Source: Lachnospiraceae bacterium (GTDB lineage Bacteria; Bacillota; Clostridia; Lachnospirales; Lachnospiraceae). Taken from it: a stretch of DNA of 42,479 nucleotides. The notes under the pieces were generated by a model. The model was not told the DNA's origin, made no database searches, and was given only the letters and a program-made list of their open reading frames with translations. Within the stretch, counting starts at the first letter, position 1; each line of letters opens with the position of its first letter. Below, piece after piece: positions 3,228 to 31,647 of this stretch. The position numbers and the translations under genes are program-made. Location of the stretch: the NCBI GenBank assembly GCA_017479285.1, contig JAFVCL010000019.1, forward strand, positions 1-42,479, written 5' to 3'.

Positions 3228-4871
3228 TTAATACTTTCTGAATCTGTTGTATCTTTCCTCTGCGAGCTGTTCTCCGCTCTTTCCCTCCATCTTTTTAAGA
3301 AATTCGCGGATCCTGCCCTTCATATCGCTTGCCATGGAAGAGAGTGCCGCTTCGTCCGCCCCTCCGTACTCGGGGATGATGTCTTCGATAACACCGAGCT
3401 TCTTAAGATCCTGGGCGGTAATCTTCATTACCTCCGCAGCCTCCTCCTTACGGCTTCCGTCCTTCCAGAGGATAGATGAGAAGCCCTCCGGCGAGAGGAT
3501 CGAATATATCGCGTTCTCGGTCATCCAGACCTCGTTTCCGACTGCCAGCGCTATCGCGCCTCCGCTTCCGCCTTCTCCCACCATTATTGCAAGGATAGGA
3601 ACCTTTAAGGCGGACAACTCATACAGGTTTCTCGCGATTGCCTCTCCCTGTCCGTTCTCCTCGGCTTCCTTTCCGGGATAGGCACCCGATGTGTTTACAA
3701 AAGTAATTATGGGTCTTCCGAATTTTTCTGCCTGCTTCATGAGACGAAGTGCCTTGCGGTAGCCTTCCGGTGAAGGCATTCCGAAATTATGTCTCTGACA
3801 CTCGGCAAAATCCCGTCCTCTGTTTACACCGATAACGGTTACCGGCTGCCCGTCAAGATAGGCGATACCGCCCATTATAGCCGGGTCATCCCTGAAATAT
3901 CTGTCCCCGTGAAGCTCTGTGAAATCGTCAAATATCGCGCCGATGTACTCCGCAGCTCCGATCCTTGAAACCTTTCTTGCCTCCTGGACCTTCTCCCAGG
4001 CGGATAACTGAGCCGCCTTTGCTCCCCGCTCCTTCATTATCTCTGTCGGTCCGTAATAAACCTTTCCGTCTGGCTCCTTAAAGTCCGCGAAGTGTCCCTT
4101 TTTGGAGTGAATATCAAGTATCTTTACAAGTGTGGGCTTTAACTCTTCTCTTCCCACAACCTTGTCCACAAATCCGTGCTCCAACTGGAATTCCGCTCTC
4201 TGAAAGCCCTCGGGTAGCTTTTCTCCGATGGTCTGCTCTATAACTCTCGGTCCCGCAAAACCGATCATGGCACCGGGCTCCGCAAGGATTATATCTCCAA
4301 GCATCGCAAAGCTTGCGGTAACTCCTCCGGTGGTCGGATCCGTTAGAACCGAGACATACAAAAGCCCGGCATCCGAATGTCTTTTCAAAGCCGCGGAGGT
4401 CTTTTCCATCTGCATAAGGGAGACTATTCCCTCCTGCATTCTCGCTCCGCCCGAGCATGCAAAGAGTATTACGGGGAGCTTCTCCTTAGTCGCAAATTCA
4501 ACGACGCTCGTAATACGGTCTCCCACGGCGTGTCCCATACTTCCCATAAGGAATCTGGAATCTATCACCCCGAGCACCGCTCTATGGCCGCCTATAAGAC
4601 ACTCACCGACGGTTACTCCCTCGCTCAGTCCGGTGGCCTGCTGTGCCTTTAAAAGCTTCGCTTCATATTCGGGGGTTCCGAGAACATTGCTCGTCCCGAT
4701 ATCACCGTACATCTCCTTAAAGGTACCTGTATCCGCGATCATCTTTATACGGTTGTCCGTCCAGACGCGGAAAAGTCTGCCGCATTTCGGGCAGACATAT
4801 AATTTCTTTTTTACTTCCGACCATTCTACCTCAGCCTTACAGCCGGGGCAGGTTTCTACAACATTTTCCAT
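3228..4871 (-). CDS. accDA: Fused acetyl-CoA carboxylase carboxyltransferase (AccD-AccA)
   Basis: A 547-residue protein combining both carboxyltransferase subunits, which are separate polypeptides in E. coli. Residues 1-258 are AccD-like, with a four-Cys zinc ribbon (Cys8, Cys11, Cys27, Cys30) and the crotonase-fold stretch [11 protein letters not shown]. Residues ~285-547 are AccA-like ([36 protein letters not shown]). The enzyme transfers carboxyl from carboxybiotin to acetyl-CoA to make malonyl-CoA in the cytoplasm. The start lies one base after the fabD stop, implying tight coupling, and this is the last gene of the lipid operon. Biotin carboxylase (AccC) and BCCP (AccB) are not in the window and must be encoded elsewhere. 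Confidence 0.93.
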
Positions 4872-4872
4872 T

Positions 4873-5829
4873 TCAACCTCTGAGATAAGTCCTTAAATCC
4901 TCTAACTTATCAATGCTCACCGTCTTTACTTCCGAATTAAGTTTTCTTACAAATCCTGAAAGCGTGGATCCGGGTCCCAGCTCTATAAATAGATCCGCCC
5001 CGTCCGCGATAAGCCTTTCCAGCGTCTGCTGCCATTTTACCGAGGAGGAAACCTGAGCGGTAAGAAGGGGCTTTATCTGATCGGCATCTGTAACATAATC
5101 AGCAGTTACATTTGCAAGATAAGGTATCCCGGGCTTATTTATTGTAACGCTGTCAAGCACTTCTCCCAGTTTTTCTCCTGCGTCCTTTAAAAGTGCGGAA
5201 TGGAAAGGCCCACTTACCTTAAGGGGAACCGCTCTTCTCGCGCCGCGCTCTACGCAGAGCTCCGACACCTTCTTAACAGCATCCTCCCGTCCGGTTATAA
5301 CGATCTGGACCGGGCTGTTGTAATTCGCAACGGAAACAACATAGGGAAGGGAATATCCCGACGCATCCCCGTCCGGTCCGGCATCCTGTACTTCCTTACA
5401 TACCTCTGCCACAACACCCGGGTCAAGATTAAGTATCGCCGCCATTGCGCCCCCTTCGGGAACCGCGTCCTGCATAAGCTTTCCACGGTGCTTTATTACC
5501 TTGAAAGCATCCTCCATGCTCATGGCGCCGGAAGCGATCACCGCTCCGTATTCTCCGAGGCTCAGTCCCGCAGTATAATCACACTTAAGTCCTTCCTTTA
5601 CGGCAGCGGTATAAACAGCCGCCTCAGCAGCGAGCATACATATCTGGGTATACTCTGTAATATTTAATTTATCGTTTTCCTCAAAGCACAGCTTTTCCAC
5701 TGAAAAGCCCGCAGCTTCGGAGGCCTTTGCAAAAACCTCCCTTACCTCGGGATACTCGTCATAAAAATCCTTTGCCATCCCGATGTACTGGCTTCCCTGT
5801 CCGGGGAACATAAATACTGTCTTACCCAT
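4873..5829 (-). CDS. fabD: Malonyl-CoA:ACP transacylase
   Basis: A 318-residue FabD-type acyltransferase that loads malonyl units onto the acyl carrier protein. Visible motifs are GQGSQ (11-14), the nucleophile elbow GLSLGEY with Ser90, and GPFH with His210. In many family members the residue before the catalytic Ser is His (GHSLG); here it is Leu, which I regard as a tolerated variant rather than a defect. It lies between fabZ (about 40 bp upstream) and accDA (1 bp downstream). Within this operon it should supply malonyl-ACP to the fused ketosynthase. Confidence 0.93.
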
Positions 5830-5868: not shown

Positions 5869-6312
5869 TTAAGAATAAACATTTTCCTTAGGCATCGATG
5901 TAAAGGCGAGTTTGCCCTTTGCACGGACTCCCCCGTCCACGGAGATCTTTACATCAAACTTTACAAGTCCGGCACCGCCCGCAGTCTTTGTAACCTCTAT
6001 CTCGCATACATCTCCGGGAATAACAGGCTTGACGAATTTAAATTCATCAACCTTTAAAAGCACATAAATTATGCTCTCATCCGTCCCTTCGCTCTCTATG
6101 GTCACGGAGCAAAGCTGGGCTGCAGCCTCGATAAGAAGAACGCCCGGCATTATCGGGGTGTCGGGGAAATGGCCCATGAAATAAGGCTCATTTATCGAGA
6201 CATTCTTTATTCCTTTTGCGTATTCTCCGTCCCTTATCTCCACGATCTTCTCGATCATCTGGAAGGGAGGACGCTGTTTGATTCTCTTCTGTACTTCGTT
6301 TATATTCAGCAT
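5869..6312 (-). CDS. fabZ: 3-hydroxyacyl-ACP dehydratase (FabZ type)
   Basis: A 147-residue hot-dog-fold dehydratase of normal FabZ length. The catalytic motif GHFPDTPIMPGVL contains His48, and Glu62 in LLIEAAAQ is the second catalytic residue. It removes water from 3-hydroxyacyl-ACP to give the trans-2-enoyl-ACP. It starts 21 bp after fabG, with GAGG upstream of the ATG. No enoyl reductase follows in this operon; unless one acts in trans, the enoyl product would be extended unsaturated. Confidence 0.92.
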   Translation of the reverse strand: MLNINEVQKRIKQRPPFQMIEKIVEIRDGEYAKGIKNVSINEPYFMGHFPDTPIMPGVLLIEAAAQLCSVTIESEGTDESIIYVLLKVDEFKFVKPVIPGDVCEIEVTKTAGGAGLVKFDVKISVDGGVRAKGKLAFTSMPKENVYS

Positions 6313-6333: not shown

Positions 6334-7083
6334 TTACAGGCTGAGTCCGCCGTCAAGCACAAGTACCTGTCCCGTCACATACGAGCAGGCATCGCTTGCG
6401 AGCATAACAACCGCATTTGCCACCTCATCGGCAGTTCCGAATCTTCCAAGGGGAATATCCTTGATGTACTGCTCTCTCTTTTCCTCGGGGATAGCCTCGA
6501 TCATCTCCGTTGCAATAAAGCCCGGAGCCACGGCATTTACTCTTATCCCATAGGGGGCAAGTTCCTTTGCCATCGTAGCCGTCATGGAATTAACCGCGCC
6601 CTTCGTCGAGCTGTATACCGACTGACCGGGAACGGCAAGAACAGAGCTTACGGATGAGACATTGACAATGCAGCCCTTCTTCTTGGAAAACATCTTAACC
6701 GCAGCCTGCTGTGAGCAGTAAAGATATCCCTTGATATTAAGATCAAGACACATATCTATCGTGTCGGGATTCATCATCATTACATACTCATCCTTAACGA
6801 TTCCGGCGTTGTTGACAAGAAGATCTATCTTTCCGAAGGTCTTAACAAAGGTACGCATCATATCCTGTACTTCCTTGAGATTTGACGCATTAGCCTTGAT
6901 AGCGATTGCTTCGCTTCCCGCCTCTTCGATAGCCTTAACAACCTCCTGGGCGGCAGCCTCGTTGGAATTATAATTTACTCCCACCTTGTATCCCGCCTTA
7001 CCGAGCGCGATGGCACAAGCTCTTCCGATACCCCGGGATGCACCCGTAACCAGCGCTGTCTTTACTTCCTGTGTGTTTTCCAT
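6334..7083 (-). CDS. fabG: 3-oxoacyl-ACP reductase (FabG type)
   Basis: A 249-residue short-chain dehydrogenase/reductase. The cofactor motif TGASRGIG (13-20), NNAG (91-94) and the catalytic Ser144, Tyr157 and Lys161 (YSSTK) are all present, so it should be an active NAD(P)H-dependent ketoreductase acting on 3-oxoacyl-ACP. It lies 61 bp after the fused ketosynthase and 21 bp before fabZ, with AAAGGGA as ribosome binding site. The FabG name rests on operon context; SDR sequences alone do not fix the substrate. Confidence 0.92.
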   Translation of the reverse strand: MENTQEVKTALVTGASRGIGRACAIALGKAGYKVGVNYNSNEAAAQEVVKAIEEAGSEAIAIKANASNLKEVQDMMRTFVKTFGKIDLLVNNAGIVKDEYVMMMNPDTIDMCLDLNIKGYLYCSQQAAVKMFSKKKGCIVNVSSVSSVLAVPGQSVYSSTKGAVNSMTATMAKELAPYGIRVNAVAPGFIATEMIEAIPEEKREQYIKDIPLGRFGTADEVANAVVMLASDACSYVTGQVLVLDGGLSL

Positions 7084-7144: not shown

Positions 7145-9523
7145 TCAAACCTTCTTCAGCACGACCGCACAGTACGATCCGCCCTCGGAAGTGGCTGTGG
7201 CAAGCACATACCTGTACGCGGATGTATCAGCCTTGCCCTCGCTGACACTGTCTCCAAAGAAGTATGCCTTCTGCTCATCTCCCAGCTCACCGGAAAGAGT
7301 AAGTGCTGCGGTTGCAACGCTCAGCGCACTTGCTGCGGCGCGGCTCTCTCCGACATAAGCCCTTACATTGTGTACAGGCTTCGCTGAGCCCAGTAATTTC
7401 TTATATACATTTTTCTCCACGGAGTCAATCTCGCTGCATCCGTTACCGAATCCGTATACCGCATCAATATCACCGATGGTTATTCCGGCATCCTTAAGCG
7501 CAATATCTATTGCCTCCTCAAGTCCCGCCTCGGTGCCTGCGATCTTTCCGTACTCCGTAACCGCGTGGGTCATGCCGTATCCCGCTACCCGGGCGTACTT
7601 CTTTGCACCACGGGCATCAGCGCTTTCTGCGCTCTCAAGTACAACGGTCGTACTTCCGTCCGACATCGCAAAGCCCGTATCTCCGTAAAGCTTCGCGCTT
7701 CCGTTTGCCACATGCCCGAGCTGTCTGTAAAGCTTCTCCATTACCTCGCTGTTCTCGTCCGTACCTGTGGCTAGCATAACCTTTGCATGATTCTGGCGTA
7801 TCTCGTTGTATGCATAGCAAAGGGAGGACATACCGGACTGGGCACCGTTGGTTACGGTTACATTCACGCCTCTCATATTTGTCTTTATCGAAAGATATCC
7901 GCCGGCGGCATTATAAACCGTGGTGGGGAAGTTGAATGCGGAGCCGCTCTTGGTTCCGTTTGCCGTTATATTCTCCTGGAATTTGTAAACCGTCGTAAGA
8001 GGACCGTCATCCGTACCGATTATCATACCGTAATCCTCGGCCTTCTCATCTGCGATCTCGATACCGGCATTCGAGAGAGCCTCAAGTCCGGATACGACCT
8101 GCATAAGAGAGAGCTTGTCAAGCTTACGGTAAAATGCCATCTTTACATCATATTTATCGTAATCATCCTTGGTAGTCTCTGCAAATACGGAGTCTGCGGC
8201 GATGGTCTCACCGTTCTTTACCTTGTCCACATAATTTGCAACTCCGTTTCCAAGAGGGCTTACGATACCCATACCGGTAATGTAGATAGGCTCATCATTT
8301 GCGGTCTCGGCAACATTGCCGGCACCCTTTGAGAATATGATCGAAGCATTGCTTCCGCCGAATGCGAAGGAGTTGCTCATTACGAAGTCGAGCTGCTTTT
8401 CCTTCATCTCGTTGGGCATGAAATCAATCTTTCCTGCCTTCTCGGCAAGTGCTGTCTTATCCTCGTCGGTATAACCGATGGTTGCGGGAATCTTGTTTTC
8501 CACAAGAGCCTTGATAGCGTAGACAGCTTCAATGGCTCCGGCTGCACCGAGGCAGTGTCCCACCATTGCCTTTGTGGAGCTTACGGAAAGATTATCGTTT
8601 ACATCATCAAATATCGCGTGAAGTGAAAGGAACTCGGCCTCGTCATTTTTTGCGGTTCCTGTTCCGTGTGCATTTACATAGTCAATATCCTCGGGCCCCA
8701 GTCCGGAATTTGCAATTGCCGTGCGGATTGCGTACATCTGTCCGATTCCGTCAGGTCTCGGCGCAGTGATATGGTGCGCATCGCTGCTTACCCCTGCCGC
8801 AAGTACATCACAGTATATGCGGGCATTTCTCTTCTGTGCGTGCTCGTAGGACTCTACCACGATAGCTCCGGCACCCTCTCCGAGAGTAATTCCGTTTGAA
8901 TGGTTGAAGGGTGAGCAGGGCTGCTCGGAAAGAGCGTGAAGTGCATGGAATCCGGCAAAAGGAACTGCCGCAAATGCATCCGCGCCACCTACTATAAACA
9001 TATCGGCAACGCCCGCGCGGATAAGCTCGCACGCGTATGCCACGCTTATGCTTCCGGCTGCACACGCATTACCGACATTTGTAATAACACCGCCCGCACC
9101 CACACGGTTTGCGACATGGTTAGCGATGGGGGAAATGGTCATCTTTCTTATGTCCTCGGTCTTTTCTCCGCGTGCGACATAATTCTCGATGCTGACAACT
9201 CCGCCGACACAGCTTCCCATTACAACACCGAATCTGGTGGCATCTTCCTTGCTCATATCTATCCCGGCATCCTTAAATGCCTCCTCGGATGCCTTAAGGC
9301 AAAGCTTTGAAGCTCTGTCAACTCCCTCGTAGGTATCGAGGTCTTCACAGTCAACCTCTGCTCCGAGATTTGCATAGCACTCATCCGCGTTGACTGACTT
9401 TACCTCAGCGATTCCGCTCTTGCTTGCAAGTGCGTTGTCCCAGCACTCCTGAACATTGTTTCCGATGGCATTGATCATACCGAGTCCGGTAACTACACAG
9501 CGGGTATTAATAGGCTTGTTCAT
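7145..9523 (-). CDS. Fused double ketosynthase: active FabF-like KS plus inactive CLF-like domain
   Basis: A 792-residue protein made of two thiolase-fold ketosynthase domains in one chain; ordinary FabF is about 410 residues. Domain 1 (~1-405) keeps the triad Cys154 (GNACAAG), His286 (VNAHGTGT) and His323 (VGHCLGAAGA), so it should condense acyl and malonyl-ACP. Domain 2 (~411-792, starting EPIYITGMGIVSPLGNG) is clearly homologous but the aligned triad is Ala561, Phe692 and Glu726, so it cannot condense. This recalls the KS-alpha/KS-beta (chain-length factor) pair of type II polyketide and aryl-polyene systems, here covalently joined. In an ungapped alignment a Gln (562) sits one position after the lost Cys, not exactly at the Gln of classical CLFs. 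Its neighbours supply ACP, KR, DH, AT and malonyl-CoA. The product is unknown. Confidence 0.88.
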   Translation of the reverse strand: MNKPINTRCVVTGLGMINAIGNNVQECWDNALASKSGIAEVKSVNADECYANLGAEVDCEDLDTYEGVDRASKLCLKASEEAFKDAGIDMSKEDATRFGVVMGSCVGGVVSIENYVARGEKTEDIRKMTISPIANHVANRVGAGGVITNVGNACAAGSISVAYACELIRAGVADMFIVGGADAFAAVPFAGFHALHALSEQPCSPFNHSNGITLGEGAGAIVVESYEHAQKRNARIYCDVLAAGVSSDAHHITAPRPDGIGQMYAIRTAIANSGLGPEDIDYVNAHGTGTAKNDEAEFLSLHAIFDDVNDNLSVSSTKAMVGHCLGAAGAIEAVYAIKALVENKIPATIGYTDEDKTALAEKAGKIDFMPNEMKEKQLDFVMSNSFAFGGSNASIIFSKGAGNVAETANDEPIYITGMGIVSPLGNGVANYVDKVKNGETIAADSVFAETTKDDYDKYDVKMAFYRKLDKLSLMQVVSGLEALSNAGIEIADEKAEDYGMIIGTDDGPLTTVYKFQENITANGTKSGSAFNFPTTVYNAAGGYLSIKTNMRGVNVTVTNGAQSGMSSLCYAYNEIRQNHAKVMLATGTDENSEVMEKLYRQLGHVANGSAKLYGDTGFAMSDGSTTVVLESAESADARGAKKYARVAGYGMTHAVTEYGKIAGTEAGLEEAIDIALKDAGITIGDIDAVYGFGNGCSEIDSVEKNVYKKLLGSAKPVHNVRAYVGESRAAASALSVATAALTLSGELGDEQKAYFFGDSVSEGKADTSAYRYVLATATSEGGSYCAVVLKKV

Positions 9524-9557: not shown

Positions 9558-9706
9558 TTTAACCGGCTTACCCTTTCGGGGTCCGGTTAAAGATTGACTT
9601 CCAATTGTGGTAATATAAGGATTGCTCATATTCGCGTGTATCTGATGGCTGCTTATCCCTGCGTGCAGGCACGGCGGCTAAACAGCCATCGATCCGCTTA
9701 TATTAC
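9558..9706 (-). promoter_or_regulatory. Structured intergenic RNA between ACP and ketosynthase genes
   Basis: The 179-bp gap between acpP and the ketosynthase gene is unusually structured. A perfect 10-bp pairing joins GTAATATAAG (9610-9619) with CTTATATTAC (9697-9706) and overlaps the ACP stop codon. Inside it, GATGGCTG (9644-9651) pairs with CAGCCATC (9683-9690), with a further CCTG/CAGG hairpin (9658-9669). Separately, TTTAACCGG (9558-9566) pairs perfectly with CCGGTTAAA (9583-9591), with CCC/GGG continuing inward. No U-tract follows either on the minus strand, so these are not plain terminators. A processing, stability or attenuation element setting ACP:KS stoichiometry is my inference. 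Confidence 0.5.
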
Positions 9707-9951
9707 ATGTGCTCAACTACATACTTGGTAAGGCTGGTGATGTTGTAGAAATGCTCCTTGGGAACACCGGTCATAACTACACCATACTCATTGTCGATGC
9801 AGGAAATGATCTCAAGTGAATCTACAGAATCAAGTCCGATACCTTCGTTGAAAAGAGCGATATCGTAATCGAGCTCCTCCTCGGGAATGTTGAGGTTCTC
9901 AGATAACATGCTCTTGATCTTTGCAGCTACTTCAAGTTCTTTCTCGTTCAT
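9703..9951 (-). CDS. Acyl carrier protein
   Basis: An 82-residue acyl carrier protein. The phosphopantetheine attachment serine is Ser42 in GLDSVDSLEI; the usual housekeeping motif is DSLD, and DSVD is a conservative variant. I chose the ATG at 9951 (MNEKELEVAAKI), preceded by AAAGGATAAGAAA, over a longer frame opening at 10002 with no good ribosome binding site. It carries growing acyl chains between the KS, KR, DH and AT encoded downstream. Its sequence around the Ser and in helix III (VVMTGVPKEHFYNI) departs from the standard FAS ACP, which fits a dedicated carrier for this operon. The gene is flanked on both sides by structured spacers. Confidence 0.9.
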   Translation of the reverse strand: MNEKELEVAAKIKSMLSENLNIPEEELDYDIALFNEGIGLDSVDSLEIISCIDNEYGVVMTGVPKEHFYNITSLTKYVVEHM

Positions 9952-10061: not shown

Positions 10062-10694
10062 CTACACCTCACCGTTTTTCAGTTTCTCCCCAAGCCCTTC
10101 TATATAGCTCCGGCTCTCCTCGCAGTATTTCTTAAGCACAAGTGAGGGTCTTCCCTTTTCGTGAAGGTCGAAATCAAGCGGTTTCCCGATAACAAGATGG
10201 GTCAGCCTGAAGGGTTTTATCTTGCGGCTTATGAACATCGGTACCGGAGTGGCATCCGTCTGCTTTGCGAGCACGAGAAAGCCCGGCTTAAAGGTATCCA
10301 TACAGCCGGCCGGTGAGGTATGTCCCTCCGGCAGAATATATACAGACGCGCCGTCCTTCATTATCCCGGTCGTCTTTTCGAGCCAGTCCGTATCCATCCC
10401 GCTCTTTCTGTCTATGGAGATATACGGCAGATTCCTGAAGAGCCAGTTTATCGGCTTTTTATCATACCAGTCCTTCCCCACAAAGGTCCAGACTCTGTAT
10501 CTGTGGAGCAGCCTTGTTATAAAAAGGCCTTCGACATATCCGAGGTGGTTTGAAAAAACTATACAGCTTCCTTCAAGCGCTTTCTCGGTAGCCTTCCTGT
10601 CCTCCCAGTGGATCTTCATCGGGTAAAGGACTCGCAGTACGGGATAAGCGATAAAAAATATCCCCCTCGCTATTACCTTTAAAACTCCGTTCAT
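10062..10694 (-). CDS. PlsC-like lysophospholipid/ACP acyltransferase
   Basis: A 210-residue 1-acyl-glycerol-3-phosphate acyltransferase (LPLAT/PlsC) family protein. An N-terminal hydrophobic segment (~residues 5-22) suggests membrane association. The HX4D motif appears as NHLGYVEG, with Glu in place of the usual Asp, and a later block reads ILPEGHTS in place of the common EGTRS. The start codon overlaps the stop of the upstream reductase by one base (TAATG), so translation is coupled. In this operon it probably transfers the finished acyl chain from the ACP to a glycolipid or phospholipid acceptor; PlsC-type enzymes play this part in aryl-polyene clusters too. The acceptor is unknown. Confidence 0.8.
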   Translation of the reverse strand: MNGVLKVIARGIFFIAYPVLRVLYPMKIHWEDRKATEKALEGSCIVFSNHLGYVEGLFITRLLHRYRVWTFVGKDWYDKKPINWLFRNLPYISIDRKSGMDTDWLEKTTGIMKDGASVYILPEGHTSPAGCMDTFKPGFLVLAKQTDATPVPMFISRKIKPFRLTHLVIGKPLDFDLHEKGRPSLVLKKYCEESRSYIEGLGEKLKNGEV

Positions 10695-11446
10695 TACTGC
10701 GCCTGACCCTTTCTGCCGTAAGGTCCCACATTCGGGTCGTCCCAGTTGAGATTTATAAGGCGCTCGAAGGTATTATGTCCGAGCATCGGAACCGCGAGCT
10801 TTGAAAGAGTCTCCTCACTCACCCTTCCGGTCCTTGCAAACTCGGCTCCGGCCTCGGTGAATTTTACAAGATACTTGTCGACCTTGCCCTGAAGGGTTTC
10901 CTCGGCAAGCATACCGCCCTGTGAGGCAGTGATAAGCGTGTAGTTACCCTCACCGCAGATAATATCATACTGCTGCTTTATCGGGCCGTAGCACCCTTCC
11001 GTCTTCTCGTAGCCGCAGCTGGAGACAAGGACAAGCTTCTTCTGCATAAGCTCGGGATAACGCATCTTGTGGAGAAAGCTTCCGCTCTCCTCGTTTCCTC
11101 CCACGCCCCTGTACTCGGAGACATAGGAAATCATTCTGTCGACAAAGGCCTTCATCTTTGAGGGCTGACCAAAAAAATAAAGCGGAAAGCTCTCGATGAT
11201 AACATCATTTGCCATAACAAGATCCCGGAGTTCATCCATATCATCATGGATAATGCACTTACCGCGGTCGTTTTTCCAGCAGCTAAGGCATCCAAGGCAA
11301 TGTTCGATTTTCTTATCCCTGAGCAGTACCTCTGTAACCTCGGCATCGGGGACCGTCCCGGTAATTCCGCGCACAAAAGCGTGAGCCACCTTTATTGACG
11401 AGCTGCGATCTCCGCGCATACTGCCGTTCAGCAAAAGGATCTTCAT
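10694..11446 (-). CDS. NADPH-dependent FMN reductase / flavodoxin-like oxidoreductase
   Basis: A flavodoxin-fold oxidoreductase of about 250 residues. It begins MKILLLNGSMRGDRSSS, the FMN-phosphate loop of the NADPH-dependent FMN reductase family, and contains LGCLSCWKNDRGKCIIHDD, a Cys-containing loop common to iron-sulfur flavoproteins and related quinone reductases. I place the start at 11446, where GGAG lies about eight bases upstream; an in-frame ATG at 11479 lacks a ribosome binding site. It is the first gene of the lipid operon and overlaps the acyltransferase by one base. It is not a FabK-type enoyl reductase (that is a TIM barrel), so its role in the pathway, perhaps a redox tailoring step, is open. 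Confidence 0.8.
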   Translation of the reverse strand: MKILLLNGSMRGDRSSSIKVAHAFVRGITGTVPDAEVTEVLLRDKKIEHCLGCLSCWKNDRGKCIIHDDMDELRDLVMANDVIIESFPLYFFGQPSKMKAFVDRMISYVSEYRGVGGNEESGSFLHKMRYPELMQKKLVLVSSCGYEKTEGCYGPIKQQYDIICGEGNYTLITASQGGMLAEETLQGKVDKYLVKFTEAGAEFARTGRVSEETLSKLAVPMLGHNTFERLINLNWDDPNVGPYGRKGQAQ

Positions 11447-11568
11447 ACTGAAACTCCGTAATCTGAGACCGGTAAGCATCCGGCTTTATACAACGCTTTA
11501 TTCTCTCACATATTTCAAAATAAGGCAACCCTAAAACCGTGAGTTTATTTTTTTTTCAGATGCTTATA

Positions 11569-25337: not shown

Positions 25338-27755
25338 TTATACCTGCTCCATAAAATATATTCTTGAGCCGAAATCCTGGAAATGTCTGACTTCCCCGTT
25401 ATATCCGGTGGCACCGAAGGCCTGCTTTAAGTGCACCCCGCCGTTCATAAGCGTATCTCCGCTTGCGGTCACATCCTCGGTCTCACCGTCCATCTTAACA
25501 AACTTCGCGATCATATCGATGAGCAGTCCGTCTTTTTTTACATGTATCGGAGCCACCGTATTTACAAGGTCTCCGAATTCCCTTACATCGATCTTCAGCG
25601 CCCTGTTGTAAAAATGGTAAAGCTCCCCATCGCTCAAGCCCCTCGCGTGGTAACAGTGGAAGGGAGAGTTCGGGACCACAAGTCTTTGCATAACCATCCC
25701 GACTGCCTTCTTTTTATCGGACGAAACACAGGTCCACTCGGAAAAGTTCCCGCTTTCGAAGGGCACGGCAGCTGCGCCGCTCATGGAAGCACTTACCTGC
25801 GGCATTGCCGCGGAACCCTTTCCTCGGTAGAAATCGCCCCACTGCAATACTTCTCTCCACTCCTTATAAAGCTCAATCTGCGCCTTTATAGCGGCGACCT
25901 CCTCCTTCTTCATGTCACAGAGATTGCACTCATATCCGAGCACTCCGAAGGAAGCCACATTAAATCTGGTCTCGAGGGGAGTTGTCCGGAGCGTCTGGTG
26001 GTTCGGACAATCCGAGACATGAGCCGTTACGGTGGACATGGGATAACCGTAGCTGTATCCGGTCTGTATGCTGAGCCTGCACATGGCATCCGTATCATCG
26101 CTCGCCCATATCTGGGGGAAATATGAAAGTATTCCGAGGTCGAACCTGTTTCCTCCGGCGCTGCACCCCTCGAAAAGGATATGGGGGAATCTCTCTGTCA
26201 GAGTTTTCATACAGTGGTACAGTCCCAGCACATATCTGTGGGCAAGTTCTCCCTGCCTGTCGGCAGGAAGGCTCTGTGAGAAATAATCCGAGAATATCCG
26301 GTTCATATCCCACTTTACATACGATATGTTCGCCGAGGAAAACACCTCGCTCATCTTATTTATAATAAAATCCTGTACTTCCGGATTCGAAAGGTCAAGT
26401 AACCGTTGGTTACGCCCTTCACTGTGGGGCTTACCGGGTATTTCTACCGACCACTCCGGATGTGCTTCATAAAGCCTGCTCTTTACGCTTATCATCTCCG
26501 GCTCTACCCAGATACCAAAATCAAGCCCTAATCCGTTTATCTTCTCCGCAAGATGCTTTAATCCGCCCGGAAGCTTCCTGGGGTTTACATCCCAATCCCC
26601 AAGGGAGGTTGAATCATTGTCCCTCTCCCCGAACCATCCGTCATCCATAACGAAAAGCTCGATACCGACTTCCTTTCCTGCCTTTGCCAGCTTAGTAAGC
26701 TTATGCTCGTTTATGTCAAAATATGCAGCCTCCCAGCTGTTTAAAAGAACCGGTCTCGTTTTGTGCTTCCACTCGCCCCGGACTATGTGTTCCCGGACAA
26801 AGTGGTGCATATTTTTGCTCATTCCGTTGTAACCACAGGCGCTGTAGGTCATGACTGCCTCGGGGGTATGGAAGGAATCCCCCTCCCCGAGAAGAAACTT
26901 AAAGCCCTCCGGATTTATTCCGGAAACAACTCTTGTTTTTCCAAACGCGCCTGCCTCAACGCACTCATAGTGATTTCCGCTGTATACAAGGTTAAACCCA
27001 TATACTTCACCGGAATCCTCACTCGTCTCAAGAGGATGGAGCATAAAGAAGGGATTGCACTTGTTCGAGCTGGTCCCGGTCATGGAGGAGGCGATATGCT
27101 TTCCCCCTGTCACAAGGCAGTCATCCCTTTGCATCTCCCTTGCCCATGCTCCGCGGAATGTGGTAAACACATATCCCGCCCGGTCAAAATCCATCTGCAT
27201 ACTCATAAGTCTCTCAAGAATTATCTTATTCCTGCTGTTGTTTACAAGCCCGGCGTTCCTTGTTATAACATCGCAGTCCTCATAAACAACATAATTAAGA
27301 TAAAGAGTAAGGTCGTAGGAGCGGTCTTTTAAAATGACCGTAAGCGTCTTTGCCTTATTGCCTTCATCATAGGATGCGGGCATATCCCCAAGATCCAGTG
27401 TACCATCCTTTATCTCATAGCCCTCGTAAACAAAGTCCGATGTGGTGCTTCCGTCCGCATGCCAAATGCATACAAAGGGTTCCCTTATGTCGCCCTTTCC
27501 GTAGGCTGACATTTCAAGGCGCATATCCTCAAGTGAATACATAAGGTGCTCCTGGTCGTAACCGGTCGTATTTCCGGGATAGAAAGCGTGTTTTTCCGTA
27601 AGCGCATCCAGCGTTCCCTCCTCAGCACCCTCCGGGATCGTTATTTTCCTTCCGTAGTAAAGATGCTCCGGCTGCCCGGTGGGAAGGATCCTGAATATGT
27701 ATGATGTTGAACCGGTTTCGAGAATAAAGCCCTTATTGTCCGTTACGCGTATCAT
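25338..27755 (-). CDS. aga: GH36 alpha-galactosidase
   Basis: An 805-residue cytoplasmic alpha-galactosidase of glycoside hydrolase family 36, slightly longer than the ~730-residue family norm. An N-terminal beta-sandwich (~1-300) precedes the barrel, which shows PVLLNSWEAAYFD, FVMDDGWFGERD, the nucleophile Asp in YVKWDMNR and the acid/base Asp in WASDDTDA, plus the substrate-binding CSAGGNRFD block. It releases galactose from raffinose-family oligosaccharides or galactomannan. No signal peptide is seen. It appears monocistronic; the GPH transporter at 28256 could supply a substrate, but the two are separated by the small-toxin locus. Confidence 0.95.
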   Translation of the reverse strand: MIRVTDNKGFILETGSTSYIFRILPTGQPEHLYYGRKITIPEGAEEGTLDALTEKHAFYPGNTTGYDQEHLMYSLEDMRLEMSAYGKGDIREPFVCIWHADGSTTSDFVYEGYEIKDGTLDLGDMPASYDEGNKAKTLTVILKDRSYDLTLYLNYVVYEDCDVITRNAGLVNNSRNKIILERLMSMQMDFDRAGYVFTTFRGAWAREMQRDDCLVTGGKHIASSMTGTSSNKCNPFFMLHPLETSEDSGEVYGFNLVYSGNHYECVEAGAFGKTRVVSGINPEGFKFLLGEGDSFHTPEAVMTYSACGYNGMSKNMHHFVREHIVRGEWKHKTRPVLLNSWEAAYFDINEHKLTKLAKAGKEVGIELFVMDDGWFGERDNDSTSLGDWDVNPRKLPGGLKHLAEKINGLGLDFGIWVEPEMISVKSRLYEAHPEWSVEIPGKPHSEGRNQRLLDLSNPEVQDFIINKMSEVFSSANISYVKWDMNRIFSDYFSQSLPADRQGELAHRYVLGLYHCMKTLTERFPHILFEGCSAGGNRFDLGILSYFPQIWASDDTDAMCRLSIQTGYSYGYPMSTVTAHVSDCPNHQTLRTTPLETRFNVASFGVLGYECNLCDMKKEEVAAIKAQIELYKEWREVLQWGDFYRGKGSAAMPQVSASMSGAAAVPFESGNFSEWTCVSSDKKKAVGMVMQRLVVPNSPFHCYHARGLSDGELYHFYNRALKIDVREFGDLVNTVAPIHVKKDGLLIDMIAKFVKMDGETEDVTASGDTLMNGGVHLKQAFGATGYNGEVRHFQDFGSRIYFMEQV

Positions 27756-28255: not shown

Positions 28256-30106
28256 TTATGCTTTTGCCTTCTTCGATGCAAGCTCCTTTGTAATCTCCTC
28301 GAGTTTTTCATCCGTGAGCTTATATCTTGCCTTAAAGATGATAAGAGCTACCACAAGGACGAATACCGGCAGAACAGTCATTACAAAGCGAAGTCCGATG
28401 ACTGAATTGTTTGAAACCACTGTCACCCCATTTGCCATTATATCGGCAATATAGCTCTTAAGCCCATAGCATCTCATACCGTCAATGACCTCTCCACCCT
28501 GGGAAGCGTATGTACTGCCCGATTCGCTTATATTAAATATTGAGAGGCATATCGATGCAACAAGAGCAGCGATTCCGGATGCAAGCTTAACAACAAATGT
28601 CTGCATCGAGAAGATTACCGACTCATCGCGGCGATTGTTCTTAAGCTCGCCGTAATCTACAGTGTTTGCAAGAAATACCGTAACTATAACATTCAACATT
28701 CCAACCGCTGCCATGATGAAAAATCCGGGTGCGAGGAAGGGATATACACTGCTTGTTCCCGCAAGCGCCATGATAAGCAGGATCACATATCCGCCTATGG
28801 CCGAGAAAATACAGATGTAAAAAATCTTCATGGTGTTAAAGAATTTCCTGAGCAGCGGAAAAAATGCCATCATCGCAAGTATCTGGCAGGCTCCGGCAAA
28901 TGTGTTGAATGTGGTGTAATCTCCCTGCCAGTTTGAGCCTCCGAGATCGTACTTAAAGAAATATATGAGCAGGTTTGATGTGATGTAGGTGGCTGAATTT
29001 ACAAGCACTATCGTTATAACCATCGCCATCGCCTGGTCGTTTTGAAGGAGCGCCTTGAACATATCGCTGACCTTGGCAGTCTGCACATCCACCGTTGATT
29101 TTTCCTTGATAAACAGGCAGGTGATAAGGATAAATCCAAAGAACAGAACCGCTACGATGAGCGAGAACCATTTAAATCCGACTCTCTCAACCTCCTTCTT
29201 CGAGGAAAGATAGGTCGTCATCCCATCGCTCTCTGATATCTTCGCATAGTTTTCTTCGGAAACATATACCGCGATTACAGCCTCTCCGTCCTTATCATCC
29301 ATAACAACATCAAATTCATTGACCGTAAGGGCATCCTTGGCTTCACTTGAAAAAACAAGGTTTCCGATAGTAATGTCATATTTTGCGTTGCTGGTTGTGA
29401 ATGAAATTGCATTCTCAAACTCTGCCTTGTTGGCGGTTATTCCGAGAGTCGCTCCGCCGGTAAGAGTCTTTACATTTCCGGTGGCTGCTCCTGTCTCATC
29501 CATCTCCACAACATAAGCGGTTGTGTCCGTAACGGTAAGAGTCTCATTGTCGGCACTCTTTCCAACGGCGGCATTTCCCAAAGCGGAAACCGCAAGTACG
29601 GTGACAATGGTAACGATCGCAGAGCCAACGCCTGCACAGGTTCTTCCCAGAGCGGACATATTCTCACGCTCTTTGCCGCCGTCGGTAAACGCGGGAACCA
29701 TCGACCAGTAGGGAATGTCCATCATTGTATATGTAACGCCCCAAAGGATGTAGAATGCCGCTGCATAAGCAACAAGTCCGCTTCCGGACAGTGAGGGAGG
29801 TGCCGCAAACATAAGGAATAGTATCACGGCATTTGTCAGCGTTCCGATAAAAAGCCAGGGTCTGAACTTGCCCCACTTTGTCTTTGTCTTTGCCACAAGC
29901 ACTCCCATAAGAGGATCATTGAAAGCATCGAATACGCGGGCGATGAGAAGGATTATACCCATAACCCATGCGGACACTCCCATAATGTCCTGATAATAGT
30001 AAAGGATATAGCTTGCCGAGAGCATGTAAACCATATCCTTGCCCACAGCACCGATACCATAGGCAAACTTTTCTTTTCCTGTAAGCTTTTTCTTACCCTG
30101 TTCCAT
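28256..30106 (-). CDS. GPH-family sugar:cation symporter with a large extracytoplasmic insertion
   Basis: A 616-residue transporter of the glycoside-pentoside-hexuronide (MelB-like) family. The family signature RVFDAFNDPLMG (Asp60 and Asp64, the cation-site positions of MelB) and MMDIPYWSMVPAF are present. Family members are usually ~450-480 residues; here about 130 extra residues (~177-305) sit between predicted helices 5 and 6, a loop expected to face outside. The insert is Thr/Asp/Glu-rich and beta-like, without Cys. It lies 38 bp after the GT-B-like gene in the TetR-led operon. A galactoside, glucoside or glucuronide substrate is possible; nothing in the sequence decides. Confidence 0.88.
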   Translation of the reverse strand: MEQGKKKLTGKEKFAYGIGAVGKDMVYMLSASYILYYYQDIMGVSAWVMGIILLIARVFDAFNDPLMGVLVAKTKTKWGKFRPWLFIGTLTNAVILFLMFAAPPSLSGSGLVAYAAAFYILWGVTYTMMDIPYWSMVPAFTDGGKERENMSALGRTCAGVGSAIVTIVTVLAVSALGNAAVGKSADNETLTVTDTTAYVVEMDETGAATGNVKTLTGGATLGITANKAEFENAISFTTSNAKYDITIGNLVFSSEAKDALTVNEFDVVMDDKDGEAVIAVYVSEENYAKISESDGMTTYLSSKKEVERVGFKWFSLIVAVLFFGFILITCLFIKEKSTVDVQTAKVSDMFKALLQNDQAMAMVITIVLVNSATYITSNLLIYFFKYDLGGSNWQGDYTTFNTFAGACQILAMMAFFPLLRKFFNTMKIFYICIFSAIGGYVILLIMALAGTSSVYPFLAPGFFIMAAVGMLNVIVTVFLANTVDYGELKNNRRDESVIFSMQTFVVKLASGIAALVASICLSIFNISESGSTYASQGGEVIDGMRCYGLKSYIADIMANGVTVVSNNSVIGLRFVMTVLPVFVLVVALIIFKARYKLTDEKLEEITKELASKKAKA

Positions 30107-30144: not shown

Positions 30145-31647
30145 TTAGTTATTACCCTTTAAACCCATCGCGATCTCTACGACCCTGTACGCTCCATCGT
30201 AAAGACCGATACCTTTGTTTGTTACTATCGCCTCACACATATCCTTGAGAAGTGAAGGCGAAGTCATAAACTCCTCCACCATCTGAAGGGTATGGGGAAT
30301 ATCTCTGCACTCGAGCGTCCCCTCTCCCATCTCTGCGGAGTGGATCGCTCCCCACATCTCGTGCTTTCCCACACGCCTTATGAACAGCTTCGGCACCGGA
30401 TAAAACGCCAGCTCACTCGGCTTGGTAACAAGCACATCACAGCTTCTCATAAGAAGGTTCGTGCAATAGACCGCCTCAAAAATATTCCTGTGCCAGAAGC
30501 CGTGGATACCTGTAACCTCTGTATCTTCCGAGAGTGCGCCCGAGGCGAATTTTACGGTATCGTTCCAGTCGTCCATATGTTCCGAAGTAAGCTCAGCCAT
30601 TCCCGGGATTTCAGCCTTAAGCTGATCCCATACATTACGGTAATCTCCCACATTTACATAGAGTGCCGCCTTCTTATCCTTTATGTACGGAAGAAGATAT
30701 TTTATTATAGCGGCAAATATCTCCTTCTGGGCACCGGCTCCGCCGATGGTGAGCAAAAATCTCATCGGCTTTCCACCGGTCTGTCTCTTTATTCTCGCTT
30801 CACAATCAGCTTCTATATTTGCAACGAGCTCATGATCGATATAATGTCCGGTGTAAACAAGACTTCCCTCCGGCATCGGTCTGCAAACCTTCTTTTTCAT
30901 CATTCCGTTGCATATCTTATAACCCTGGTATGCATTCCGGCACTGAACCGTATGAACCGCGCCCTCCGCGTAGTGAAGCGCCATCGGCCAGTTGTCGGGG
31001 ATCGCATTTACGACATATTTCATCCCTGCATGGATTGCCGCCTGTGCGGGCCATACATGGGTTCCCACAACCGGAATACCCTTTGGAACATTCCTGTAAA
31101 CAGGAGCCATAAGCTCCGCATTTTTCTGGTCGGCAGCATTGTAGGAAAACGCTCTGAAGCCTTCGTAGTTCATGGGTTCCCAGACAAGCTTGTTAAAGAT
31201 GGGGTTCTTTGAGAGTCTTGAGCCCAGTGAGTACAGATCGTTCTGCGCTCCTATAACCTTTGTGCAGGTTGTCTCCCTGTATGAATTAAGATCCATCCAA
31301 TACGGAGTATAGCCCATGTGCTTTGCAGCCGAGGCAATTGCCATCGATATGCGGTAATGTCCGAAGCCCATCCTTATGTTTCCGACTATGATTCCTTTTT
31401 CCGTATCCCAGTCAAGCGCCGGCAGGTTGTCCTCCTCCACATAATGCGCGTTCTGCTTAAGGTCCCCCACAAGGACATTGTTTACACCGAGGTAGTCTCC
31501 GATATATTTATTCTTTTCGATCTTTACAGGGTAATCGGCCGCCGAGTCATCCCCGTACTTTTTCGCATATTTCTTTTTTGATCGGACTGCCTTGTTGTAT
31601 ACCCCCTGGGGCATTTCATTTCCGAATATTATTTTTGATCTTTCCAC
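30145..31647 (-). CDS. GT-B-fold glycosyltransferase-like protein of unknown function
   Basis: A 500-residue cytoplasmic protein. After ~85 N-terminal residues, IIVGNIRMGFGHYRISMAIA resembles the N-terminal loop of GT-B enzymes of the MGDG-synthase/MurG type, where Gly-His contacts the acceptor. RFLLTIGGAGAQKEIFAAI and LVTKPSELAFYPVPKLFI resemble the nucleotide-sugar-binding C-terminal half (the latter like the 'KpGG' strand of MurG-like enzymes). I cannot name a specific family. It lies between a TetR regulator (44 bp upstream) and a GPH transporter (38 bp downstream), so it may modify a glycoside or lipid connected with that transporter. Both the enzyme class and role are tentative. Confidence 0.6.
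   Translation of the reverse strand: MERSKIIFGNEMPQGVYNKAVRSKKKYAKKYGDDSAADYPVKIEKNKYIGDYLGVNNVLVGDLKQNAHYVEEDNLPALDWDTEKGIIVGNIRMGFGHYRISMAIASAAKHMGYTPYWMDLNSYRETTCTKVIGAQNDLYSLGSRLSKNPIFNKLVWEPMNYEGFRAFSYNAADQKNAELMAPVYRNVPKGIPVVGTHVWPAQAAIHAGMKYVVNAIPDNWPMALHYAEGAVHTVQCRNAYQGYKICNGMMKKKVCRPMPEGSLVYTGHYIDHELVANIEADCEARIKRQTGGKPMRFLLTIGGAGAQKEIFAAIIKYLLPYIKDKKAALYVNVGDYRNVWDQLKAEIPGMAELTSEHMDDWNDTVKFASGALSEDTEVTGIHGFWHRNIFEAVYCTNLLMRSCDVLVTKPSELAFYPVPKLFIRRVGKHEMWGAIHSAEMGEGTLECRDIPHTLQMVEEFMTSPSLLKDMCEAIVTNKGIGLYDGAYRVVEIAMGLKGNN

Follow-up and report, generated by a model that had tools for sequence, protein, structure and literature searches.

A single-chain active/inactive ketosynthase built like a KS-CLF pair and its conserved operon in gut anaerobes

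The fused gene, its operon and its relatives

The window analysed here is the whole of contig JAFVCL010000019.1 (42,479 nt) from Lachnospiraceae bacterium, assembly GCA_017479285.1, a draft of 102 contigs that is 87.5% complete and carries the genome label G000. On its minus strand, at 7145-9523, lies an ORF of 792 aa with an ATG start and the stop codon within these coordinates. It was found where the original prediction had placed two ketosynthase (KS) domains in one chain, and Pfam likewise gives two stretches each of the ketoacyl-synt N and C domains. All residues named in that prediction (Cys154, His286, His323, Ala561, Gln562, Phe692 and Glu726) were verified in the translation. In the window the genes follow each other in the order flavoprotein, acyltransferase, acyl carrier protein (ACP), the fusion of an active and an inactive ketosynthase (KS-KS0), FabG, FabZ, FabD and AccDA:

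3228..4871, minus strand, fused AccD-AccA carboxyltransferase, both parts over NCBIfam cut-offs
4873..5829, minus strand, FabD malonyltransferase, over the NCBIfam cut-off
5869..6312, minus strand, FabZ-type dehydratase
6334..7083, minus strand, FabG-type ketoreductase, YxxxK kept
7148..8299, minus strand, half 2 of the fusion, residues 409-792, a predicted complete ketosynthase fold with Ala561-Gln562, Phe692, Glu726 and Arg728, without catalytic residues
8300..8317, minus strand, residues 403-408 between the halves
8318..9523, minus strand, half 1, residues 1-402, active FabF-type ketosynthase with Cys154, His286, Lys318 and His323
9703..9951, minus strand, acyl carrier protein of 82 aa with the DSVD phosphopantetheine motif, start set by comparison with 82-aa relatives
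10062..10694, minus strand, PlsC/LPLAT-type acyltransferase
10694..11479, minus strand, flavodoxin-fold FMN protein with CX2CX2CX7C, possibly an iron-sulfur flavoprotein

Elsewhere in the window an alpha-galactosidase gene (25338-27755) lies near that of an MFS_2 sugar transporter (28256-30106, 616 aa), which was matched in two stretches and perhaps holds a large insert; the ORF at 30145-31647 codes for a protein of two domains, DUF6937 and DUF6938.

Full-length fusions with 80-91% identity were found in eight genomes of the same genus among 59 relatives searched, and one further fusion, in another family (G042), is 32% identical. Across 392 genomes of the order, five matched at E<=1e-90, the own genome included: G000, G369 (70%), G358 (57%), G131 (33%) and G042 (32%). 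Scanning GTDB genomes with an alignment of half 2 brought up 245 relatives, and the best 80 were kept as loci. The ORF exceeds 700 aa in 77 of these best 80. L173, one of the 77, is truncated where its contig ends, and the same kind of truncation leaves shorter pieces in L134, L160 and L170; the piece in L160 stays open over 657 codons in frame 0. An assembly or sequencing error that joined two genes, a danger pointed out in the original prediction, could have been suspected in a window that forms an entire contig of such an incomplete, fragmented draft. Full-length fusions in the eight same-genus genomes and a fused ORF at 77 of the 80 scan loci exclude it, and this reading, by our estimate extremely improbable, was dropped.

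Carriers among the best 80 of 245 belong mostly to Bacillota, Mycoplasmatota and Treponema. They comprise Lachnospiraceae, Butyrivibrio, Ruminococcus, other Oscillospiraceae, Eubacterium, Erysipelotrichaceae, Christensenella, Anaeroplasma, Acholeplasmatales and Treponema, as well as two putative Bacteroides (L117, L153). Several are named strains not marked as MAG: Ruminococcus bromii YE282, Anaeroplasma bactoclasticum ATCC 27112, Lachnospiraceae bacterium G41, Eubacterium sp. MSJ-21 and Eubacterium sp. AF22-9.

All eight same-genus relatives keep the gene order as far as contigs and ORF calls show, with variable flanks; the exceptions are L037, where the ACP was not called, and L044, which starts at the fusion. 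For the scan, same-strand ORFs within 8.5 kb were BLAST-clustered at 79 loci (from the best 80 of 245), giving ketoreductase (KR) at 74, flavoprotein at 66, dehydratase (DH) at 65, ACP at 59, LPLAT at 53, FabD at 48 and carboxyltransferase at 46. KR is the next same-strand gene downstream of the fusion in 72 of the 79. Where 6 kb or more of sequence flanks the fusion to each side (36 of these loci), the flavoprotein is present without exception, followed by KR (33), ACP (29), DH (28) and FabD, LPLAT and carboxyltransferase (26 each). The motif CX2CX2C, with one more Cys after a gap of 7 or 8 residues, was registered in 65 of the 66 flavoproteins from the same best-80 set, a pattern known from Isf-type iron-sulfur flavoproteins. 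By tblastn the 80 loci (best 80 of 245) yielded FabZ-like (75), flavoprotein (69), acyltransferase (56), patatin-like (14), AccC (9) and PlsX (6) matches, and three of them carry an AMP-ligase resembling the one in G358; biotin ligase forms one accessory family among the fusion loci. Two FabH queries and one FabK query found no tblastn match in these best 80 of 245 loci, the search for enoyl reductases covering the FabK type.

Properties and origin of the two halves

Conservation of single residues was followed in an alignment of 80 fusions: 77 came from the scan (best 80 of 245), and the window protein and the distant fusions L045 and L081 were added. In half 1 Cys154, His286, Lys318 and His323 are invariant (80/80). 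In half 2 none of the 80 has His at 692 or 726, and the column of the lost Cys (561) is occupied by Ala in 35, Ser in 19, Asn in 7 and other residues, with Cys in a single protein. This is L164 from Anaeroplasma bactoclasticum ATCC 27112, whose inactive half has neither of the two histidines. The inactive half has instead a signature of its own: Gln562 in 76, Phe692 in 69, Glu726 in 74 and Arg728 in 78 of the 80 aligned fusions. Gln562 is missing from the distant L045 and L081 and from two Treponema rows (L168, L169). In classical aromatic chain-length factors (CLFs) Gln replaces the active-site Cys, and the motifs SDQAGG and SEQAGG occur in two of our four aromatic reference CLFs. Half 2 does not have Gln at that position. 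As the original prediction stated, its Gln is offset from the Cys column by one residue (NACAAG in half 1 vs NGAQSG in half 2), and it stands one residue later in 76 of the 80.

The stretch connecting the halves (399-413) is 14-19 residues long in the 80 aligned fusions, with a median of 15. Half 2 diverges faster, its mean p-distance in 78 proteins being 0.467 vs 0.317 for half 1, and the correlation of 0.91 between the two looks as if both halves travelled together. Both halves look constrained, with dN/dS of 0.036-0.115 for half 1 and 0.048-0.157 for half 2 in 10 pairs, values which are rough, since dS exceeded 1 throughout.

In the full-length model (pLDDT 90.3, pTM 0.92) the two KS folds are predicted to form an intramolecular pseudo-dimer, a feature that the original prediction named as support. 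Its best full-length Foldseek match is the PfaC KS-CLF didomain 6riw (TMq 0.80 over both halves, rmsd 7.4, identity 19%), while FabF chains among the matches listed reach TMq 0.46-0.48. The structure of the PfaC KS-CLF was reportedly described by Santin et al. in 2020. Since 6riw is absent among the 50 VIA-align matches listed, where single-domain matches to half 1 took the rows, the relative orientation of the halves is taken from Foldseek. Half 1 shares 39% identity with B. subtilis FabF in structural alignment. For the half 2 model FabF also leads the fold-comparison rows, with an alignment over 374 residues; the CLF chains 1tqy_B and 6kxd_B are absent among the matches listed for this half, which does not by itself exclude them. 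PDB 9s5h (chains B and C), by sequence a possible ketosynthase heterodimer, was set aside, being absent among the matches listed (50 each) in four fold comparisons. Thus, because the predicted structure matches PfaC over both halves and the active/inactive split is conserved, the protein is built like a covalent KS-CLF.

Against the NCBIfam fabF equivalog cut-off of 493.75 the whole protein scores 480.7, half 1 alone 355.2 and half 2 139 bits, all below it; the broader subfamily PRK07314 has a cut-off of 387, which the whole protein exceeds (455.9) and half 1 alone does not reach (339.9). Compared as a profile, half 2 scores 312 with FabF, 268 with CLFs and 261 with KS-alpha. The tree of halves contained 84 rows, made of 27 out of 81 fusions (the 80 aligned ones and a Priestia plasmid fusion, L186) split in halves and of 30 references; E. 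coli ApeC, being short (240 aa), was left out. In this tree SH-aLRT 100 supports one group made of the 24 close half-1 rows and another made of the 24 close half-2 rows. The distant fusions (Priestia plasmid L186, G042 and G131) join them half by half, with SH-aLRT 96 for half 2 and 91 for half 1, the latter group including also one long-branched row of an aryl polyene (APE) KS. Aromatic CLFs stand elsewhere, alongside a two-gene partner from Priestia. Within the limits that long branches set to both the tree and the AU tests, none of the tested placements was rejected: p was 0.52 for grouping half 2 with CLFs, 0.698 for grouping it with all inactive partners, 0.242 for an ancient duplication within the gene and 0.238 for placing half 1 with FabF/FabB.

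According to these data the original prediction, a KS covalently joined to a CLF-like partner in an anaerobic Firmicute, is supported for the architecture, given the 6riw match and the active/inactive split in 80 aligned proteins, and is not supported for an affinity of half 2 to CLFs: half 2 makes its own group, the AU test left p at 0.52 and the profile is nearer to FabF. Membership of half 2 in the aromatic CLF clade was not established by tree, AU test or profile comparison. A recent duplication of FabF, the alternative named at the start, disagrees with separate deep groups common to all 24 close relatives sampled and was dropped. The same data bear on a reading in which half 2 serves purely to complete the dimer, as the remnant of an old tandem FabF duplication without influence on chain length. 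Such an origin is in line with the preference of half 2 for FabF over CLF profiles, with the leading place of FabF in its fold rows and with an intragenic duplication that was not rejected. The conserved Q562, E726 and R728 together with low dN/dS argue for some specific role, and the halves form separate deep groups, so that we regard a purely structural partner as very unlikely.

A ketosynthase joined with its inactive partner is not new as an idea. The single chain of PfaC, from PUFA synthases, carries an active KS and after it a KS-like CLF that is inactive (PMC12895367, PMC9702510). The difference is that PfaC belongs to a multidomain synthase, whereas the window ORF ends after half 2 and KR, DH, ACP and FabD are separate genes. 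Type II polyketide synthases (PKS) resemble the 80 aligned fusions in combining a Cys-His-His KS with a KS-homologous partner that lacks catalytic residues, but use two polypeptides for it. KS and CLF are two proteins also in the highly reducing type II PKS of ishigamide (Iga11-Iga12, 6kxd); this polyene type shares with the window operon discrete ACP, KR and DH. The accessible part of one account gives Iga13 as the KR and Iga16 as the DH of the ishigamide system, naming neither a flavoprotein nor an LPLAT, and describes ApeC as about half-size with one thiolase fold (PMC8358021). Half 2 of the window protein, unlike ApeC, is predicted to be a full KS fold. Aryl polyene synthases (ApeO-ApeC; CFT073 locus) likewise combine KR, DH, ACPs and an LPLAT gene with a KS whose partner is inactive, but encode KS and partner separately, and the window operon is without their MMPL transporter, LolA and acyl-CoA synthetase genes. 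FabF (KAS II), a homodimer with two active sites, resembles both halves, half 1 being FabF-like and half 2 keeping the full fold; half 1 alone, however, stays below the fabF equivalog cut-off. Celluxanthene-type PKS, a polyene system of anaerobes, was discarded from the comparison, as it is reported to be an iterative type I PKS (PMC12144888).

An analogue outside the main group is the 809-aa active/inactive fusion from the Priestia megaterium plasmid (WP_013060151.1, L186:3947-6376), which lies beside FabD, FabG, ACP and FabZ and whose halves join those of window-type fusions in the tree. It is distant and differs in having a GcvT-like gene and an MFS transporter, with no flavoprotein annotated in the 9.1-kb stretch. 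L186, L045:7835-10273 and L081:6316-8727 make up a second, distant KS-KS0 lineage with a GcvT-like neighbour in all three; FabD- and FabG-like genes accompany it, and a FabA/FabZ-type dehydratase was seen in L186 and L045. The G042 locus (L046:4800-18188) contains three two-gene KS/KS-like pairs in one cluster.

Genomes carrying the fusion and the fatty acid synthase alternative

Beyond the fusion, the genome of the window (G000) has a KS-domain match of 25 bits only, and that gene is a thiolase. The same genome gave no PF08541 match and a FabH match of 18.6 bits; its matches to FabK (19-21 bits) stay far below the cut-off. The fusion is the sole FabF-type KS found in G000, G005, G006, G012, G013 (94% complete), G029, G358 (99%) and G131 (91%), each of which has besides only a partial match of 25-29 bits (its thiolase identity was established for G000); most genomes compared are incomplete, G011, G027, G358 and G369 being 98-100% complete. 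Another KS accompanies the fusion in G008, G014, G016, G369 and G042, in the first four as a separate FabF. PlsX was present in 12 of the 12 genomes tested.

These observations bring forward the main rival of the KS-CLF synthase reading, namely an alternative fatty acid synthase, where the fusion would prime and elongate ordinary fatty acids in place of FabH and FabF and the flavoprotein would be an unrecognised enoyl reductase. Genomes with the fusion as the sole FabF-type KS speak in its favour, as do the absence of FabH and FabK above cut-off in G000, the flavoprotein in 36 of 36 well-flanked loci (from the best 80 of 245), AccC and PlsX at nine and six of those best 80, and the biotin ligase family. 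Against it are the separate FabF beside the fusion in four genomes, the patchy distribution with five matches among 392 order genomes, and four genomes of the same genus in which FabF-type KS was not found. To our knowledge, no flavodoxin-fold protein acts as an enoyl-ACP reductase. On balance we consider this alternative rather unlikely. The four same-genus genomes just mentioned (G003, G009, G010 and G023, 89-93% complete) show only a 25-bit match and look auxotroph-like; with no FabF-type KS found there, fatty acid scavenging is possible in them.

No biotin carboxylase domain over the cut-off was detected in nine fusion genomes of the genus (a sub-threshold match in G005), three of which carry also a separate FabF, nor in the four same-genus genomes in which no KS was found; it is present in G011 and G027, which have ordinary FAS operons. 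The biotin carrier gene of G000 adjoins a carboxyltransferase gene and lies between an oxaloacetate-decarboxylase gamma-like gene and a beta subunit gene, and in G013 an OadA-like gene follows the biotin carrier region. By Pfam, the carrier gene at L082:5418-9304 neighbours a carboxyltransferase and genes like the gamma and beta subunits of oxaloacetate decarboxylase, and at L083:5857-11383 an OadA-like gene follows. Because the biotin carrier adjoins decarboxylase-type genes in AccDA genomes without biotin carboxylase over the cut-off, malonyl-CoA may be supplied by transcarboxylation.

Proposed pathway and its significance

Taking these data together, we consider it fairly probable that the protein is a single-chain equivalent of KS/CLF serving a self-contained operon, in which the dead half would shape a length-setting tunnel and the chain would be unsaturated. 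Half 1 would condense malonyl-ACP, supplied by carboxyltransferase and FabD, onto the growing chain, and half 2 would pack on it as a pseudo-dimer partner and help to form the acyl tunnel that sets chain length. In each round FabG would reduce and FabZ dehydrate. Because the cluster has neither FabH nor a recognised enoyl reductase, the chain probably starts by decarboxylation of malonyl-ACP inside the enzyme and is probably left unsaturated, as a polyene or partly unsaturated product. At many loci the LPLAT-type acyltransferase would then take the completed chain off ACP and attach it to a lipid or an alcohol, and the flavoprotein, seemingly always needed, would perform a redox step. The score of half 1 alone, under the fabF equivalog cut-off, also speaks for this reading, and the patchy spread of the fusion and the position of Treponema rows among Bacillota and Mycoplasmatota in the tree of halves fit an accessory pathway.

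Several findings count against this KS/CLF explanation. The flavoprotein, linked in all 36 well-flanked loci, could be an enoyl reductase, and the product would then be saturated; LPLAT is absent from 10 of the same 36 (from the best 80 of 245). Half 2 is without established CLF ancestry and without the classical Gln. The fusion being the sole FabF-type KS in some genomes is what one would expect of a fatty acid synthase, and a biotin carboxylase to provide AccDA with its carboxyl group was not found over the cut-off in the genus's nine fusion genomes. A bolder version would be a self-contained lipid synthase of gut anaerobes dispensing with FabH and FabI/K, with a KS-KS0 that primes itself by malonyl decarboxylation, length set by the dead half and the flavoprotein as an enoyl or polyene reductase of a new class; it might be the sole fatty-acyl synthase in organisms such as G358. 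We judge this version quite unlikely.

In the open-licence literature, our search scope, no description of this fused KS-KS0 family was found, and the available portions of PMC9582728 and PMC8241843 do not describe it. A catalogue of type II PKS includes KS-CLFs from Firmicutes and gut samples, and its main text lacks the words "fused" and "fusion" (PMC10132072). As far as found, what is new here is the discrete one-chain form, its signature, the conserved operon and the spread in gut anaerobes. KS-CLF pairs set the chain length of polyketides, and a natural discrete version in one chain would be convenient for dissecting the role of the inactive half. If the operon made a polyene or some unusual membrane lipid, this would represent a new class of gut metabolites; should the system be a fatty acid synthase, the known set of FAS enzymes would be widened. 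With 245 relatives in the scan, this appears to be a widespread and apparently undescribed pathway of rumen and gut bacteria, and it is testable, since some of the carriers are named strains not marked as MAG.
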